Notes: generated from the sequence alone by a model not told the origin. Counted from the first letter of the stretch, positions 21,934 to 30,524 are shown. The stretch: 64,000 nt of DNA from Chitinophagaceae bacterium (GCA_947474435.1 CANJII010000012.1:1-64000); one strand, 5' to 3'. Program-made: numbers and translations.

Positions 21934-23499
21934 TTATTCAGAGAACGATATTGTGTTCACCATACTCATAATATCTTCCACATACACGCGGTCGTTACTC
22001 AGGCGCGGTACTTTGTGTTGCCCGCCAAGCTTTCCTTTTTTCTTTAGCCAGTTATAAAAAGAATTTTGTGGTAAGCTGTGTACTGTCGGTTCTTTTAATG
22101 CAATGTCTTTATACCGCTTTGCATCGTAATCAGAATTCAGTGAGCGGAGGTTGCTGTCTAAGTGCTCGGTAAATAATTTTATATCGGCAGGTTCTTTTTC
22201 AAATTCAATCAACCACTCGTGACAGCCACGGTTATCATAAGTCAGATACACAGGTGCAACAGTATAATCACTCACCACTGCTCCGGTTAATTGACATGCA
22301 TGTGCAATTGCATTGTCAGTATTATCAGCAATCACTTCTTCACCAAACGCATTGATAAATTGTTTTACTCTGCCGGTAACTTTTATTCTGAAAGGTTTTA
22401 TGGAAGTAAACTTTATGGTATCGCCAACCATGTATCGCCACAAACCCGAGTTGGTTGAAATCACAAGCGCATAATTTTCATCGGTCTTCACTTCATCAAT
22501 TAATATTGTTTTCGGAAATTCTTTTCCCAATTCACTCATCGGAATAAATTCATAAAAAATTCCATTGTTCAGGTGCAACACTAAATCTTCATCGCGCTTG
22601 CCAAACTGAAAAGCAAAAAATCCTTCCGATGCATTGTACGATTCATAAAAATTCATTCCATCACCTTTAATAAGTGATTTGAATTGTTCGCGATACGGAG
22701 TAAAACTTACACCGCCATGAATGTATAATTCAAGATTAGGCCACACATCGCGCAGATTATTTTTTCCGGTTAATTCGAACAATCGCTTAATCAAAATCAT
22801 GGTCCAGGTCGGAACTCCTGCAATATTGGTTACATCTTCTTTTAAAGTTGATTGCGCGAGGGCTTCAATCTTTTGTTCCCATTCATCCATCAAGGCAATA
22901 GATAATTGTGGCGTGCGATGCAGGTGCGCTATGAACGACATGTTCTGCAACAACACCGCACTCAAATCTCCATAACTCGAAAACGAATTCAGGTTATTTA
23001 TCTGAAGACTTCCGCCAATAATTAAACCTTTGCCGCTGAAAATTTTTGTGTCTTCATTCAGCATGCAATACGCGCTTAACAAATCGAGTCCACCTTTGTA
23101 GTGGCATTCTTCCATTGCTTCCTGACTAACCGGAATGAATTTACTTTTATCTGAAGTTGTGCCCGATGATTTTGCGAACCAACGAATTTCAGAAGGCCAG
23201 AGAATATTCTGTTCGCCCTTCATCATCCGCGCAATCCATGGTTTCAGTGAATCATAATCCTGAATCGGAATACGATTTCGGAAATCATCGAAGTTGTAAA
23301 TGCTGTCGTACTTATAATTTTTGCCCCACTCGGTTGCTGCCGCTTCCTGTATCAGATTTTGAAAAACAAGTTCCTGCGATTCAAACGGATGCTCCATAAA
23401 ATAATGAACATTATCGAACCGCTGTCGGATAAACCAGGTGACTATGGGACTTAAGTAGTACAAGTTGCGTTCGTTTGGTTTGCCAATATAGAAATACAA
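21934..23499 (-). CDS. GH3 auxin-responsive promoter family protein (acyl-acid amido synthetase fold)
   Basis: ESQELVFQNLIQEAAATEWGKNY, IRWFAKSSGTTSDKSKFIPVS, FYESYNASEGFFAFQ, LVISTNSGLWRYMVGDTIKF. Exact start uncertain. Confidence 0.92.
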   Translation of the reverse strand: MYFYIGKPNERNLYYLSPIVTWFIRQRFDNVHYFMEHPFESQELVFQNLIQEAAATEWGKNYKYDSIYNFDDFRNRIPIQDYDSLKPWIARMMKGEQNILWPSEIRWFAKSSGTTSDKSKFIPVSQEAMEECHYKGGLDLLSAYCMLNEDTKIFSGKGLIIGGSLQINNLNSFSSYGDLSAVLLQNMSFIAHLHRTPQLSIALMDEWEQKIEALAQSTLKEDVTNIAGVPTWTMILIKRLFELTGKNNLRDVWPNLELYIHGGVSFTPYREQFKSLIKGDGMNFYESYNASEGFFAFQFGKRDEDLVLHLNNGIFYEFIPMSELGKEFPKTILIDEVKTDENYALVISTNSGLWRYMVGDTIKFTSIKPFRIKVTGRVKQFINAFGEEVIADNTDNAIAHACQLTGAVVSDYTVAPVYLTYDNRGCHEWLIEFEKEPADIKLFTEHLDSNLRSLNSDYDAKRYKDIALKEPTVHSLPQNSFYNWLKKKGKLGGQHKVPRLSNDRVYVEDIMSMVNTISFSE

Positions 23500-23561: not shown

Positions 23562-24173
23562 TTATTTGATTTTGCTTAAACCTTCCAATGCAGAAGCATC
23601 ACTTGGCGATAACAATAAAACTTTGTTGAATAAAACTTTTGCCTCTGCAGTTTTTGAAAGTTGAAGATTGCACCAAGCGAACATGATGAGTCCATCATAA
23701 TCAAATGGATAAAGGTTTACTACTTTTTCAAAATAATTGTAAGCGGATTTATAATCTTTATTGGTGTAAGAGATATAACCCATGCGATAATTCACTTTTG
23801 AATTCTGCGGGTCAATTTTTAAAATGTCGTTATATACTTCAACCATTTTATTCATGTTTCCTTTTGCATTGAGCGGAAGAACATAGCCCAATTTCGCTTC
23901 AATTGAATACGGCATAAGCGCTATTGCTTTTGAATAATAATTTTCTGACTCGGTGTATTGTTGCGCTTCGTAACTCAAATAACCCAACCTCAGATTTTGC
24001 TCATAACTTTTTTCGTCATAAAATCCTTTCAATATCGAAATGGCTTCAGAATATTTTCCGGCATACTCCAATGTGTAACTCTTGGTGAATGCATCCTGCA
24101 ATGTTTGCGCTTTCGAAATTTCTGAGTTGATTAATATTAATGCAATGAGTGAAATTGAAATTAGTTTTTTCAT
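23562..24173 (-). CDS. Secreted tetratricopeptide-repeat protein
   Basis: Signal peptide MKKLISISLIALILINSEISKAQ; TPR-like YTESENYYSKAIALMPYSIEAKLGY and following units. Confidence 0.85.
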   Translation of the reverse strand: MKKLISISLIALILINSEISKAQTLQDAFTKSYTLEYAGKYSEAISILKGFYDEKSYEQNLRLGYLSYEAQQYTESENYYSKAIALMPYSIEAKLGYVLPLNAKGNMNKMVEVYNDILKIDPQNSKVNYRMGYISYTNKDYKSAYNYFEKVVNLYPFDYDGLIMFAWCNLQLSKTAEAKVLFNKVLLLSPSDASALEGLSKIK

Positions 24174-24185
24174 GATTTATAAATT

Positions 24186-25409
24186 TTAGAAATTGATTTT
24201 AAAAGAAGCAGAAAAAAAGTTGTAACGATATTTTATTGAGCCGTCATGCACAGAGGTAAACGGATTAATTACCGGATAAATTTTGGAATCTCTTCCGTAC
24301 ATAAAGTCCAATGTAATTTTATGGGGAAGAAAAATGGAACATCCGGCAATCCATCTGCTTTTTAATAGCGCTGAATTATCATTCAGCACAAAACCGTTTT
24401 CATTGTTCTGATTGTATAAAGAATCACCATTAAAGTAAGAAGCATTGAATTGTAAAAATGAAAATGGTTTGTATGAACCTGAAAGTGAAAATCCACTTTG
24501 ATAGTATGAATTCTGCTGATTCATTCCCAGGTACTCTGCTCCGAATGAAATTTTGCTATTACACAATGGATAAAATTTTATTCCACCGGTAAACTGCAAT
24601 TGATTCACCTTGTAAAAATCAGAAGCAGAACCTGAAATATTAAAATCAAAAAACGGTATTGATTTTTTCAGATTCAAAGAAAATAAATAGTAAGAATTCT
24701 TATCCGGATTTATTTGCAGATTGGTGAAAAATGTTTTTTGAGATATGAATCCGACGGAAGGTTGAACGATAAAATGTTTTATCAATGGAATATTCGCTTC
24801 GAGAAAATAATGACTCTGATAAAATTTATAGAGAGTTGTATTCAACGATGTGCCTGAATAATGATGGTACAAAGAAATGCCGCGACCAATCCGATGGTTT
24901 AATCCAACACCGAAAATGTATTTTGAAAACAACGGATAGTTTTGAATTCCTTCCTGAGAATAGCTTGCGCTGTCCGGATTGTTCATCGCAAATGATGCAT
25001 CCAGTTGATTGATGAATGCTAATTTTTCTGTCTCTGTTTTTATTTTCAATGAATCAGAAAAGGTTTTTGAAAAGCTATAAGCTTCATCATAATTTTCATT
25101 CAATTTCATTGTATTGAAAAGTGATTCTTTCAACTCATCATCAAACTGATTGTATTGATGTGCTTTTTCAAAATGCTGCTGCGCCTTTCTGTATTTTTTC
25201 AGATTATAAAACGCAGCTCCCGTTCTGTAATACAGATAATAAAATTCTTTTTTTTCTTTCACTGCTTGCTTTCCTGTTGCAATTAATTTTTTCCAATCCC
25301 GATTTTCCAATTGAACTAAAGTGAGCGAATCAAAGTGATGAATTGATTTTTGAGCAAACCCATTCACACTCATAAATAGAAGAACGAAAAATATCAATCG
25401 ATTAAACAT
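24186..25409 (-). CDS. TPR domain plus C-terminal outer-membrane beta-barrel protein
   Basis: Signal peptide MFNRLIFFVLLFMSVNGFAQ; TPRs; alternating beta-strand C-terminal half ending in ...FFSASFKINF with terminal Phe. Confidence 0.8.
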   Translation of the reverse strand: MFNRLIFFVLLFMSVNGFAQKSIHHFDSLTLVQLENRDWKKLIATGKQAVKEKKEFYYLYYRTGAAFYNLKKYRKAQQHFEKAHQYNQFDDELKESLFNTMKLNENYDEAYSFSKTFSDSLKIKTETEKLAFINQLDASFAMNNPDSASYSQEGIQNYPLFSKYIFGVGLNHRIGRGISLYHHYSGTSLNTTLYKFYQSHYFLEANIPLIKHFIVQPSVGFISQKTFFTNLQINPDKNSYYLFSLNLKKSIPFFDFNISGSASDFYKVNQLQFTGGIKFYPLCNSKISFGAEYLGMNQQNSYYQSGFSLSGSYKPFSFLQFNASYFNGDSLYNQNNENGFVLNDNSALLKSRWIAGCSIFLPHKITLDFMYGRDSKIYPVINPFTSVHDGSIKYRYNFFSASFKINF

Positions 25410-27607
25410 GTGGCCAGAACCTTTGTGTTTCCGTTTTCGATGGTGAAGTATTGGATGCTTCCGTTATTTATTACAATTTCAGAATTTATCACTTTCAAGT
25501 TTTTCTTACTGAATCCGATGGAAGCTTGTGTTTCTATCTTTATGAATTTCGGAAAATTGAAATCATCAATAACACTGAACACAGCATTGTAATCAGCTTT
25601 TACAAAACGAATAAACGGTGCTGCAAAATCCTGCAGATACAATGCCATCCCGGAAAACAAGCTATTCAATGGCAATTCATCATTAATATTCATTTGATGA
25701 TAATAGCCGAGCAAAATTTTATGTGCTGAAATAAAGAATTGATAGAGCAATGATTTTTTATGGCCATAAAATTCAGTGAAATAAAAAACTGTGAAGTTGT
25801 TAATGAAGTAAGCCGATGAATTGGTTTCAGCACAATACAAGTATTTATAGTTGTAGGAATCAACTTTCACTTCCCAAGAAATAATTTCTTTTTTCTCCTT
25901 CGCTTCTTCCTTTGTAATGACTTCGAATTTTAAATTTTGCCCGGGTTCAAAATTGAATGCACTCAATAAAATTTGTGTTCGTTGAATATTTGAAACATCA
26001 GATTGCTCTCTCGGATAATCGAACGAATGAAATTCATAATCAAATCCATTCTTACGGGTTACATAATAACTAATCGGATATTGCAAAGTTTTTGAACCGA
26101 CAAAAGGAGTTGACTGTAATTGAAAATGAATGTGCGGTTCAGGTGAACGACCACTGTTACCACAAGCAGCAATGATTTCGCCTGCATTTACATAATCACC
26201 AACCTTCACTTTAAAACTTCCTTGTTTCATATGACTGAGTTTGGAATACAAACCCTCTGCATGACGAATGATTATGGTGTTGCCCCAGTTCTGTTGAAGA
26301 TTTACATCTCCGATATTATTGTCTTCAATATCATCAATAATATGGGTTACATAACCTGCTGCCGGTGCATTTACCGGAATGTTGTAGCAAAAGAAATCGG
26401 ATAATTTTTCGCCGGGTAAACGAAAAGATTTTTTCATTTCATCCACCACCACAAAATCCAATGCATACTTCCAGTCATCGCGGTGAGTAATTTTTCCATC
26501 GTTGCCCTGCGAAACATACCACTCTCCATAAAACGGTAATGCAATTTGTATGTAAGTATTGTTTTTGTAACGCTCACTTTGATATAGATAGCGATACAGA
26601 TTTTTCTCAGGAGAAAACAATTGAACCGGAACCAATTTCAATCCCTTTGATTCAAATCTGTATTTCAATGTGAGCAATGTGAGCAGAATGATTATTGTGG
26701 AAGGAAATGAATACATGGGCAATTGCAGTAAACCCAATAAGTATCCCATTCCGGTTTGAATGACTGCAATGACTGCTGTTAATAAAATTGCCAACACATA
26801 AGATTTCGCAGATGGAATTAAATAAAATCCTCCAATGGAAATGGCAGCAAGAATATAATTGAATCCGATGTAGGTGTATGAAAGCTGTTCAACATTTCCA
26901 TGCAAAAAATAAAACGCATAATACCCGCTGATAAATCCTATGATGGAAAGTGAAAAGGCAATGCGCGAATAAATCAACAACCCAACAGCAATCAATATTC
27001 CTGCAATCACATTGTATTGAAAATAAATTGCACCAAGTGATTTGAAATAAATATCAATGATACCGGGTAACCTGATTTCCTGCATCCACTCGTACGCTTT
27101 CACCATTTGAATTCCTCCAATAGAAAACAAATCGTTGTAAACAAACAACCATCGTTCGCTCAATTGAATTTCGCCCATCCCTCGTACTGCCAGTAACAAC
27201 AACCACACAGTTAAGATGAATGGAATACCAAGGACTGGCAATTCATACTTCGCAAAAAATATTCCGACTGCATTGGTGATTAAAACTGATGTGATTGAAA
27301 AAATGAAAAGCAATAAAAAAAAGATGAATGAGAATTGAAAAAACAATCCCATCACCAAACCAACCATCAAACTATTGAAACTGTAAAATCCGGAATGAAT
27401 ACTTGTGCGGTTTAAACCCAGCCAATGCGAAAAGAATATACTGATAATAACTGCAATGAATCCTGCAATGCCAGAATGAACATTTGCAAATGATGCAACC
27501 AAAATCAGGTAAGCAAATATCCGGTTATCAGAAAAAAACATCTGCGAATAGCTATGAATAAAGCTATCGGACCAGAAGCGGATATTTTTTTTCAGTGAAA
27601 TGTCCAT
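25394..27607 (-). CDS. Urea-transporter-like membrane domain fused to an M23 (LytM) peptidase-like domain
   Basis: UT-like half-repeats GFYSFNSLMVGLVMG and GFNYILAAISIGGFYLIPS; M23-like KYALDFVVVDE...NTIIIRHAEGLYSKLSHM...GNSGRSPEPHIHFQL. Confidence 0.82.
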   Translation of the reverse strand: MDISLKKNIRFWSDSFIHSYSQMFFSDNRIFAYLILVASFANVHSGIAGFIAVIISIFFSHWLGLNRTSIHSGFYSFNSLMVGLVMGLFFQFSFIFFLLLFIFSITSVLITNAVGIFFAKYELPVLGIPFILTVWLLLLAVRGMGEIQLSERWLFVYNDLFSIGGIQMVKAYEWMQEIRLPGIIDIYFKSLGAIYFQYNVIAGILIAVGLLIYSRIAFSLSIIGFISGYYAFYFLHGNVEQLSYTYIGFNYILAAISIGGFYLIPSAKSYVLAILLTAVIAVIQTGMGYLLGLLQLPMYSFPSTIIILLTLLTLKYRFESKGLKLVPVQLFSPEKNLYRYLYQSERYKNNTYIQIALPFYGEWYVSQGNDGKITHRDDWKYALDFVVVDEMKKSFRLPGEKLSDFFCYNIPVNAPAAGYVTHIIDDIEDNNIGDVNLQQNWGNTIIIRHAEGLYSKLSHMKQGSFKVKVGDYVNAGEIIAACGNSGRSPEPHIHFQLQSTPFVGSKTLQYPISYYVTRKNGFDYEFHSFDYPREQSDVSNIQRTQILLSAFNFEPGQNLKFEVITKEEAKEKKEIISWEVKVDSYNYKYLYCAETNSSAYFINNFTVFYFTEFYGHKKSLLYQFFISAHKILLGYYHQMNINDELPLNSLFSGMALYLQDFAAPFIRFVKADYNAVFSVIDDFNFPKFIKIETQASIGFSKKNLKVINSEIVINNGSIQYFTIENGNTKVLATCLID

Positions 27608-28966
27608 TTACAATTTAAAGGATTTCAGATAATCGGGTTTCACTTCGCATGCTTCAAGGTATTCAAGATTTTCGCGCTTACGAATCAGATGAACTTTGTT
27701 TTTCATATCAATCATTACTACTGCTGGTCGTAATGCAATGAACTGCATCCACTGAGTCATGTTGTAAGCTCCAACTGTATGCACCACCACATGGTCGTTT
27801 CTTTTTAACGGCGGCAATGTAATGTGTTCGCGAATCACATCAATGTTCATGCATAGCGGGCCATACAAAACAGAGTCTTCAGTATAATTTCCGAAATCCT
27901 GTGCTGGAGAAATTTTATGGTCGTACCAGAATGAAGTGAACATCACATTCACACCAAAGTCCAAAATTGTTGCGCGCCGTCCATCACTCAATCTCTTGTT
28001 TGAAATCACACTGCCCAATAAATATCCGGCATCATCAATCAAGGCGCGACCGGTTTCCAAAACCAACAAAGGCAATTCATCAGTTCCAAATCCTGCATTG
28101 AGAATAGCAGTTGAAATTGCTTCAGCAAACTGGTCGAAATTCGGATTGGTATCAACACCTTGCAAGAAAGAACCCTTCAAAGTATTCTTCGATGCGAAGC
28201 CACCACCCATATCAAGATACAAAATATTCTTCTTGTACTTCTTTTTTATTCCAAGTGCCAAATCACTCAACTTCGATGCAGCAACACCATATGCACTCGG
28301 CGATAACATGAATGTTCCGATGTGCGAATGCAACCCAACCAAATCCAATTTATCCGCGAGAATAATTTTATTAATTGCATCCCAAGCCTGACCGTTTTCA
28401 TAATTAAAACCAAAACGGTCCCACATCGGGTAAACACCTGTATCCATGTTCACACGAATAGCAACTTTCGGTCGTTTGTTCATTTCAACTGCGAGTTCAT
28501 TCAGGTGATACAACTCATCCAGATGATCAATGTGAATGGGAGATTCATTATTTATTGCAGCTCGCAAATCATCTTCTGATTTATCGGGGCCATTAAAAAT
28601 TATTTTACTTCCAGGCACTCCATTGTTTAGTGCTTTGTGATACTCAAAACCTGAAACCACTTCAGCCCACGAACCTTCCTGGTGAAAAACATTGCAAACC
28701 GCATTGATGTAATTTGTTTTGTAGCTCCACGCAAACTGCACTTTCGGGTAACGGGTTTTAAAAGCACGGTTAGCTTCCTTGTAAGTGTTGCGAATTGTTT
28801 TTTCACTTATCACAAACAAAGGAGAACCGAATTCCTTTATCAGGCTCTTCACACTCACTTCATCAATGTGTGTGTGTGGTGTATATTCGGTTTTCATTCC
28901 GAACTTGTTCATCAACCCGGTGTTCAATCGTTGAATCAGCGGTCTTTCATATTGTAGTTTCTTCAT
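27608..28966 (-). CDS. Fold-type III PLP-dependent decarboxylase (LysA/ODC-like)
   Basis: FAWSYKTNY (PLP lysine), HSHIGTF, YLDMGGGFASKN, LETGRALIDDAG, YGPLCMNIDVI. Confidence 0.9.
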   Translation of the reverse strand: MKKLQYERPLIQRLNTGLMNKFGMKTEYTPHTHIDEVSVKSLIKEFGSPLFVISEKTIRNTYKEANRAFKTRYPKVQFAWSYKTNYINAVCNVFHQEGSWAEVVSGFEYHKALNNGVPGSKIIFNGPDKSEDDLRAAINNESPIHIDHLDELYHLNELAVEMNKRPKVAIRVNMDTGVYPMWDRFGFNYENGQAWDAINKIILADKLDLVGLHSHIGTFMLSPSAYGVAASKLSDLALGIKKKYKKNILYLDMGGGFASKNTLKGSFLQGVDTNPNFDQFAEAISTAILNAGFGTDELPLLVLETGRALIDDAGYLLGSVISNKRLSDGRRATILDFGVNVMFTSFWYDHKISPAQDFGNYTEDSVLYGPLCMNIDVIREHITLPPLKRNDHVVVHTVGAYNMTQWMQFIALRPAVVMIDMKNKVHLIRKRENLEYLEACEVKPDYLKSFKL

Positions 28967-28979
28967 TAAAATATTTTTT

Positions 28980-30029
28980 TTAAAGTTCTCCTAAAGTTGA
29001 AATGGTTTCAAATTCTTTTAAGTCGCAAATCATATCGTAGCTGTATCGGATAAACATTTTTCCGGTTTCGTACTTTGTAAATGGTTTTACTTTTTCTCCC
29101 AATGCCAATTTCAATAGTGCTTCGGGATGATTTTGTCCGGCACCTACCGCGAGATAAACCCATGCAGGAAAGCGTGGATTGATTTCTATCAGATAAATTT
29201 CTCCTTCGTTCGTACGAATCATTTCCAACTCGCAAGGTCCTTTCCACTTGCTGTTCTTCATCAGCTTTCGCGTTAAGTCCATCAGGTCGCCATCTTCGAG
29301 GGTAATGCCAGCCCATGCTTTTCCTTTATCGGTAATAAACTGTTTGCGCATCGGCACAGCGCCAATCGTGTTTCCTCTTCCATCACCTACCGCAGTTACA
29401 TTCACTTCAGTTCCATAAGTAAACTCTTGAATGATAATCGGCAATCCCCACTTCGAAGAAATTTTATGAAAGTAAGAAGTTGCCTGGTCTGCATTATACG
29501 CAACTGATGCATCATAAAATTTTCCTTTCACTACCAATGGATAAGTGAACTCCTGATATAAATTTTTTATTTCTGCAACACTGTGAATGGTTTTGCTTTT
29601 TGGAATATTGATGTCATATTTTTTTCCGAATTCGGGAAGATTATATTTCTGACGCTCTTCAAATTGTTCCAATGTTGGAAGGAAGGATCGGATGCCCAAT
29701 TCCATTTCTAAAGTATCTGCCAGTTTAATAAAGTTAAATAACTCGGCATCGAAGTTCGGAATGATTACATCTATTTTTTCAATGGAATTAATGTAACGCA
29801 AGCGCTCCATCAAACTATTTTGTCCTGCCGATGGCAATGGAATCTGATAAGTTTTCGCAATCAGCTCATGCATATATATGCCGGGTTCCAGTGCATCATA
29901 ACTTAATCCAATGATTCTCACATCATATTCCTTGCTATCGAGCAAACCGCGAACAACGGGAATTCCGGGGCCGGGACTGTCAACATTATTCAGCCCTGTA
30001 ACTGCTACATTAACTTTCTTTCTTTTCAT
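28980..30029 (-). CDS. ATP-grasp enzyme (CarB/PylC-like)
   Basis: N-terminal NVAVTGLNNVDSPGPGIPVVRGLL, YPLVVKGKFYDAS, IIQEFTYGTEVNVTAV, GPCELEMIRTNEGEIYLIEINPRFPAWV. Confidence 0.92.
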   Translation of the reverse strand: MKRKKVNVAVTGLNNVDSPGPGIPVVRGLLDSKEYDVRIIGLSYDALEPGIYMHELIAKTYQIPLPSAGQNSLMERLRYINSIEKIDVIIPNFDAELFNFIKLADTLEMELGIRSFLPTLEQFEERQKYNLPEFGKKYDINIPKSKTIHSVAEIKNLYQEFTYPLVVKGKFYDASVAYNADQATSYFHKISSKWGLPIIIQEFTYGTEVNVTAVGDGRGNTIGAVPMRKQFITDKGKAWAGITLEDGDLMDLTRKLMKNSKWKGPCELEMIRTNEGEIYLIEINPRFPAWVYLAVGAGQNHPEALLKLALGEKVKPFTKYETGKMFIRYSYDMICDLKEFETISTLGEL

Positions 30030-30270
30030 CTGATTCAGTCACCTTGAATTGTTCTAGCATTTTTGCGAAATCATAAAAATCTTTTTCGATCGTATCCTTA
30101 TCAACCGAATATGTTTCGAGTAAATGTTTTTTAATTACCTCATGGCTTTTATTTTCCTGCAGTAATTTCATAATCTCCAAACCAATGGGATTGACCGAAA
30201 ACGAATCACCGCTTGCGGGGTTAAACACAAAGCCCGTATCACTCAGGGCTATATTCTTTTTTATTTTCAT
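30010..30270 (-). CDS. PqqD-like small protein (RRE-fold candidate)
   Basis: 86 aa: NIALSDTGFVFNPASGDSFSVNPIGLEIMKLLQENKSHEVIKKHLLETYSVDKDTIEKDFYDFAKMLEQF; overlaps the ATP-grasp gene by 20 nt. Confidence 0.82.
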   Translation of the reverse strand: MKIKKNIALSDTGFVFNPASGDSFSVNPIGLEIMKLLQENKSHEVIKKHLLETYSVDKDTIEKDFYDFAKMLEQFKVTESDEKKES

Positions 30271-30338: not shown

Positions 30339-30371
30339 GTTATAAAATTCAAACAATTAGTTATAAAATTC
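30339..30371. repeat. Two perfect 12-bp direct repeats GTTATAAAATTC, 21 bp apart
   Basis: 30339-30350 and 30360-30371, in the divergent region between the pqqD-like operon and mscL. Confidence 0.75.
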
Positions 30372-30524
30372 GGAAACTTATATTTTGTTCAACGGCACTC
30401 GCGTTGGATGAATTTTTTTTATAACTTTTTCACTAAGCAAAAGAATGATACACTGTAATATCTTTAATTGTATTTCTTAATTTTGTAAAAAGCATTTTTA
30501 ATTTTACAATTCTAAAAAAAAACT

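Follow-up and report, generated by a model that had tools for sequence, protein, structure and literature searches.

What might six adjacent genes accomplish together that encode a PqqD-like protein, an ATP-grasp ligase, a decarboxylase, a urea-transporter-fold channel fused to a peptidase, an outer-membrane barrel and an exported tetratricopeptide (TPR) protein? They lie on the minus strand of a 64,000-nucleotide stretch of Chitinophagaceae DNA, which is hereafter called the window. Our preferred answer, to which we give a probability of roughly 45%, is that they form an operon dedicated to making and exporting a specialised metabolite, a small molecule that probably contains an amide, and that a metal or envelope signal induces its expression.

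The original prediction had read this region as six tightly packed genes. Checking the window sequence confirmed all six open reading frames, with coordinates and overlaps exact, and Pfam supported the assignments as PqqD, ATP-grasp, decarboxylase, UT plus M23, and TPR. The first gene (30010..30270, minus strand, as are all that follow) encodes an 86-aa PqqD-like protein of the kind seen in lasso RREs (PF05402, 1.3e-9) and overlaps by 20 bp the gene for a 349-aa, CPSase-like ATP-grasp ligase (28980..30029; PF15632 and PF02655). After a 13-bp gap comes a 452-aa PLP decarboxylase of the alanine-racemase fold, or fold III (27608..28966; Orn_Arg_deC_N and Orn_DAP_Arg_deC), and abutting it the gene for a 737-aa fusion, UT-M23 (25394..27607; UT PF03253 at 3e-55, Peptidase_M23 at 1e-15). 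The latter overlaps by 16 bp the gene for an exported 407-aa protein modelled as a TPR domain plus barrel (24186..25409), which a 12-bp gap separates from that for an exported 203-aa TPR protein (23562..24173; Pfam TPR), whose N-terminal signal-like segment was read from its sequence. A GH3-family gene (21934-23499) adjoins the operon and scores 402 bits against the lyso-ornithine-lipid synthetase OlsH, below the cut-off of 620. We rejected it as a seventh member, as it is a neighbour only in the window and the relatives L021 and L022, not in other relatives.

Whether these genes are conserved together was the check proposed alongside the prediction. A query with the ATP-grasp protein against some 85,000 genomes returned 189 relatives, 80 of which were kept for neighbourhood comparison; 19 further genomes (42-63% identity), most of them farther removed and some from other classes of the phylum, were added. 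The locus set for profile searches numbered 99, of which 79 had enough contig for a four-gene block. PqqD, ATP-grasp, decarboxylase and UT-M23 are all present in 77 of these 79, and 86 of the 99 loci carry them in this order on one strand; the block persists in the 19 added genomes. Neighbourhood comparison placed the TPR-barrel and then the TPR gene usually downstream of the block; several distant loci have the TPR gene preceding a shorter barrel (~275 residues) that has no TPR domain. All six families are held by 74/99 loci, PqqD by 95/99 and the 203-aa TPR family by 77/99.

Co-occurrence tells the same story: among 396 genomes of the phylum, the ATP-grasp ortholog (E < 1e-60) and UT-M23 were found in the identical set of 34, the remaining M23 matches being M23-only proteins. 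Divergence of the ATP-grasp protein correlates with that of the decarboxylase (r=0.85) and of UT-M23 (r=0.81; Mantel p=0.001), with shared descent contributing. Synteny and co-occurrence thus rule out a chance neighbourhood, and the expected linkage is borne out: this is a real operon, conserved far beyond chance. About a tenth of the Bacteroidota species sampled have it, and among the 172 genera it is present in at least 27; one carrier is the environmental isolate Algoriphagus kandeliae (L071). Within the window's genus, three of six genomes carry it, and it is therefore readily gained or lost; PLSDB held no match that would indicate plasmid carriage.

Individual loci show further features. 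A contig filed as Candidatus Melainabacteria (L065) carries the operon with an ATP-grasp protein 63% identical, which may reflect a binning error or a transfer. At L023:6243-8576, a multicopper oxidase and a thioredoxin-like gene are inserted between decarboxylase and UT-M23. Two distant loci encode similar-looking small exported proteins 5′ of the operon (L119:8106-8564 and L121:10272-10766), and a secreted protein of ~280 aa whose C-terminus carries a sorting-like domain is found repeatedly just upstream of it, near the PqqD gene, in distant lineages of the phylum (L110, L111, L113, L115, L116 and L117).

Upstream regulators and an operator candidate

Three types of regulator are encoded upstream of the operon. 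In 25 loci, about a quarter of the relatives, an HMA-like domain is joined to an AraC-type HTH. Eight loci have instead an ECF sigma factor, an anti-sigma-like protein and a periplasmic sensor of the PF13801 (Metal_resist)/Spy type; eight more, from Bacteroidales, carry a related set, and the sensors of the two sets are alike (98.7% hhalign probability). A third group of loci has a two-component regulator. Neighbours seen at single loci include a ZIP transporter, a multicopper oxidase, DUF2202 proteins, and a TonB-type receptor with a histidine-rich secreted protein. This ensemble suggests that the operon is probably switched on by a metal or envelope signal. Points against are that Spy-type sensors also answer envelope stress and that the third group of loci is under two-component regulators. 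Direct metal sensing is doubtful because nearly every member has lost the first cysteine of the CxxC motif in its HMA-like domain, and we discarded sensing through this motif by the AraC regulator. The molecule made may be one that binds metal, as in a metallophore pathway, the pointers to metal being confined to regulators and scattered neighbours.

In the window, a candidate operator precedes the PqqD start codon by 68 bp: a 21-bp direct repeat, AATTTTATAAC-N10-AATTTTATAAC (30339..30370, minus strand). The consensus from the HMA/AraC loci, AATYTTAYAMM-N10-WAWYDTRTAAMM, is a direct repeat with a 21-bp period. Mismatches to it averaged 2.0 in 22 HMA/AraC loci as compared to 6.5 in shuffles, a partly circular comparison as the motif was drawn from those same 22 loci, leaving out those that have no linked regulator. 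Among the latter, of which the motif is independent, 8/49 have a site with at most three mismatches. The window's site matches exactly and is the sole zero-mismatch site in its genome, where looser operator-like sites are not commoner than in a reversed-pattern control. A second operator-like site with one mismatch (L123; C57:10190-10221) is found 141 bp before the gene for a coiled-coil membrane protein and may be due to chance.

Comparison with L021, 94.6% identical to the window in DNA across the operon, revealed a trace of the regulator itself. Homology between the two ends at what is left of an HMA-like/AraC regulator gene, 49 bp from its 3′ end (30376..30424, minus strand; aligned with L021 9606-9654), where L021 has the complete gene. 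The intact regulator of the window's genome sits on another contig (C15:49022-49615, L102); its protein is 98% identical to the L021 copy, and its gene adjoins one for an LptB-like ABC ATPase, while L021 keeps ATPase, regulator and operon together. The upstream remnant and the intact copy on C15 together indicate that the operon has relocated in the window's genome while retaining its operator candidate. Across the genus, the three operon carriers have the regulator at 97-100% identity, and the three operon-less genomes have none.

The decarboxylase, the ligase and the PqqD-like protein

A clue to the substrate comes from the decarboxylase. Its best solved relative is 7kh2, an N-citrylornithine decarboxylase (FigC/FslC; profile E 1e-86), followed by diaminopimelate (DAP) decarboxylases. 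Family scores were 219 bits for FslC, 215 for lysA, 117 for DokD, 34 for speA and 11 for nspC; the FslC value lies below its cut-off of 500, and the match to TIGR01048 (LysA) reaches 214 bits against a cut-off of 298. Residues K83, H215 and C372 are invariant. In DAP decarboxylase, an arginine of the specificity helix (R343) binds the DAP carboxylate (PMC7857480). The equivalent here is T344 (Thr in 36/37 family members, Ser in one), and the acid beside the catalytic cysteine is M373 in 37/37. A LysA duplicate was rejected on the absence of this arginine, the score below cut-off, and the genuine LysA encoded elsewhere in the genome (contig C26, 380 bits vs 298).

Compared with FigC, the equivalents of T327, Y331 and M355 are kept (T344 in 36/37, Y348 in 34/37, M373 in 37/37), yet the citrate-contacting H357 and R387 are replaced by I375 and Q405 (37/37 each), and T330 by W347, invariant in 37 sequences. 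As far as these alignments tell, the pocket fully matches neither LysA nor FigC/FslC. Because I375 and Q405 take the place of H357 and R387, the acyl partner would not be citrate. The simplest inference—and a sharp prediction—is that the substrate is a distally acylated amino acid whose acyl group is other than citrate.

Comparison by scores and residues suggests that the protein may belong to clade 2 of the alanine-racemase-fold decarboxylases. This polyamine-unrelated clade comprises DAP decarboxylase, FigC, SbnH, AcsE, MccE and BtrK; those of its enzymes that are neither DAP nor D-ornithine decarboxylases likely serve specialised metabolism, and action on carrier- or peptide-bound substrates is documented (PMC7857480).

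The ATP-grasp profile is nearest CPSase-type enzymes (large chain), and its metal/ATP residues K168, E269 and E282-x-N284-x-R286 are invariant in 37 sequences. The PqqD profile matches the lasso RRE TbiB1 at 2e-12 and also the lasso B1 protein TfuB1; the 86-aa protein had no ACP-family match. Its C-terminal tail is not conserved among relatives, and a LysW-type carrier role was rejected on this ground. The chemistry foreseen in the original prediction—amide ligation coupled to decarboxylation—fits these proteins, with a pocket that appears to favour a distally acylated amino acid.

The channel-peptidase fusion and the outer-membrane barrel

UT-M23 combines three parts: a urea-transporter-fold channel (aa 15-313), with TM-scores of 0.8-0.87 to urea transporters over aa ~15-315 (normalised on the target); an M23 metallopeptidase domain (aa ~355-500); and a new C-terminal beta domain (aa ~528-737; DNA 25394-26026, minus strand), for which there was no Pfam match and no convincing PDB match. 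The zinc and catalytic residues of the peptidase—H375, D384, H459, H492 and H494—are invariant (61/61). For the channel, we used what we take to be the filter residues of dvUT (Gln24, Phe27, Thr130, Glu187 and Thr334), a numbering that agrees with our alignment. Equivalents of the pore residues Gln24 and Phe27 are retained in 55/61 and 61/61 sequences, respectively; Glu187, the second filter acid, is mostly Ala in the 61 sequences, and most have Ser for Thr130 and Thr334, the window having Gly at the former. The reading that UT imports urea, the CPSase-like ATP-grasp enzyme uses it and the rest is regulatory would accommodate the fold, the kept Gln and Phe and the likeness to the CPSase large chain, but it is very improbable in view of the altered Glu and Thr positions, the lack of a linked urease in neighbour clusters, and a decarboxylase, PqqD and barrel that it leaves unexplained. 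Proteins of the UT-M23 type run the risk of being annotated as urea uptake.

On which side of the membrane does the peptidase act? Family-averaged Lys/Arg counts, summed over loops, are ~13 per protein on the presumed inside and ~2 outside. With nearly all positive charges on one side, the positive-inside rule predicts both termini, and hence M23, to be cytoplasmic, in agreement with the known topology of UT-B. The export of stand-alone M23 relatives, which carry signal peptides or lipoprotein signals, points the other way.

For the fifth protein, the barrel originally predicted has no Pfam barrel match, yet an AlphaFold2 model built on a 51-sequence alignment (mean pLDDT 93.6, pTM 0.87) shows TPR helices plus 14 long strands, and Foldseek matched OmpG- and FadL-type barrels.

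The chief alternative to our preferred route is chemistry on a peptide scaffold. PqqD would then act as an RRE presenting a peptide, the ATP-grasp enzyme would add an amino acid or form a lactam or amide, the decarboxylase would work on a scaffold-bound residue, and M23, facing the cytoplasm, would free the product at the channel mouth. The match to TbiB1, a leader-binding RRE, suits this, as do the predicted inward termini, the invariant peptidase residues and the precedent of clade-2 enzymes acting on carriers or peptides, such as BtrK, whose glutamate substrate is held by a carrier, and MccE, which works on microcin C (PMC7857480). What such a pathway lacks is a nearby precursor: in the 1 kb around the operon, conservation of small ORFs goes no further than close pairs, and inside it there is hardly any intergenic space, although a precursor gene may lie farther away. 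Nor is any standard RiPP enzyme (radical-SAM, lasso) linked in the neighbourhoods, and the unconserved tail argues against PqqD itself being a LysW-type carrier. We regard a RiPP-like scaffold as an unlikely, if serious, contender. Its boldest form—a new machine in which chemistry on a PqqD-held scaffold is followed by a cytoplasmic cut by the channel's own peptidase and export through a re-purposed urea-transporter pore—is likewise doubtful. If true, the peptidase-channel would be unlike any known exporter.

Envelope remodelling is rather improbable. The enzymes would produce an amine or dipeptide to be added to peptidoglycan or taken off it, and UT-M23 would be a membrane-anchored periplasmic endopeptidase with the TPR-barrel as a partner in the outer membrane. 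In favour are the usual action of M23 domains on peptidoglycan, the export of the stand-alone relatives, and the presence of Spy/Metal_resist and ECF regulators, a type characteristic of envelope stress. The charge distribution, however, places M23 in the cytoplasm, the decarboxylase has no DAP-binding residues, and the patchy presence (34/396 genomes) sits poorly with a general wall function. We rank peptidoglycan remodelling and urea use below both a specialised metabolite and a PqqD-bound peptide.

A proposed pathway and its place among known systems

For the specialised metabolite that we favour, we infer the chemical steps, the direction of transport and the role of metal as follows. The ATP-grasp enzyme would activate a carboxylate and attach it to an amino acid at the distal, side-chain group, while PqqD holds partner or substrate, and the decarboxylase would strip the alpha-carboxylate from the distally acylated product, as FigC, SbnH and BtrK do. 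The product would exit the cytoplasm via the channel of urea-transporter fold, to be trimmed or released there by the attached M23 domain, and the TPR protein and TPR-barrel would take it across the outer membrane. Against this reading, no TonB receptor or other classical exporter is consistently linked in the neighbourhoods of the loci. Transcription would be turned on by the HMA-like/AraC regulator binding the 21-bp repeat and, in other lineages, by the ECF sigma factor with its heavy-metal/Spy-type sensor. If true, the UT-M23 fusion represents a new coupling of processing to export, and the spread over genera suggests that the metabolite is possibly common in aquatic, soil and digester bacteria.

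The original prediction knew of no described pathway with this gene set, and searches of families and open-licence papers likewise found no description joining these genes, an absence that carries little weight. A defence system was set aside, PADLOC giving no match. LysA, FigC/FslC, a butirosin-type carrier pathway and RiPP systems are each mismatched in at least one of the features compared here.

Among the closest known systems are FigC/FslC with the NIS synthetase FigA/FslA (rhizoferrin), represented by the solved decarboxylase 7kh2 (PMC7857480). Common to both are the lost DAP/ornithine-binding residues and the logic of amide synthetase, decarboxylase and exporter, but the present operon has an ATP-grasp enzyme rather than an NIS synthetase, UT-M23 and a barrel rather than an MFS exporter, a PqqD protein, and I375 and Q405 in place of the citrate-binding H357 and R387. 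In butirosin biosynthesis, the alanine-racemase-fold decarboxylase BtrK takes as its substrate glutamate that an 87-aa carrier holds (PMC7857480). Structures 2j66 and 7ru7 match the operon's decarboxylase. BtrJ is an ATP-grasp ligase. Unlike BtrI-BtrJ-BtrK, however, the operon has a PqqD-like protein in place of the acyl carrier protein; it lacks aminoglycoside genes, and its membrane parts are unrelated. With PqqD/RRE-dependent RiPP systems, the likeness is the match to the lasso B1 proteins, whereas the conserved precursor and the linked radical-SAM or lasso enzymes are missing.

UT-M23 shares its fold and the pore Gln and Phe with the urea transporters dvUT and UT-A/UT-B, but is fused to a peptidase and a new beta domain and has partly changed filter residues. 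A TPR domain joined to an outer-membrane barrel is also found in the exopolysaccharide exporters PgaA, BcsC and AlgK/AlgE; the barrel here has only 14 strands, is nearest OmpG/FadL-type barrels, and has no linked polysaccharide synthase. In kind, the operon would join the known ligase-plus-decarboxylase operons of specialised metabolism; what may be new is the export principle in UT-M23.
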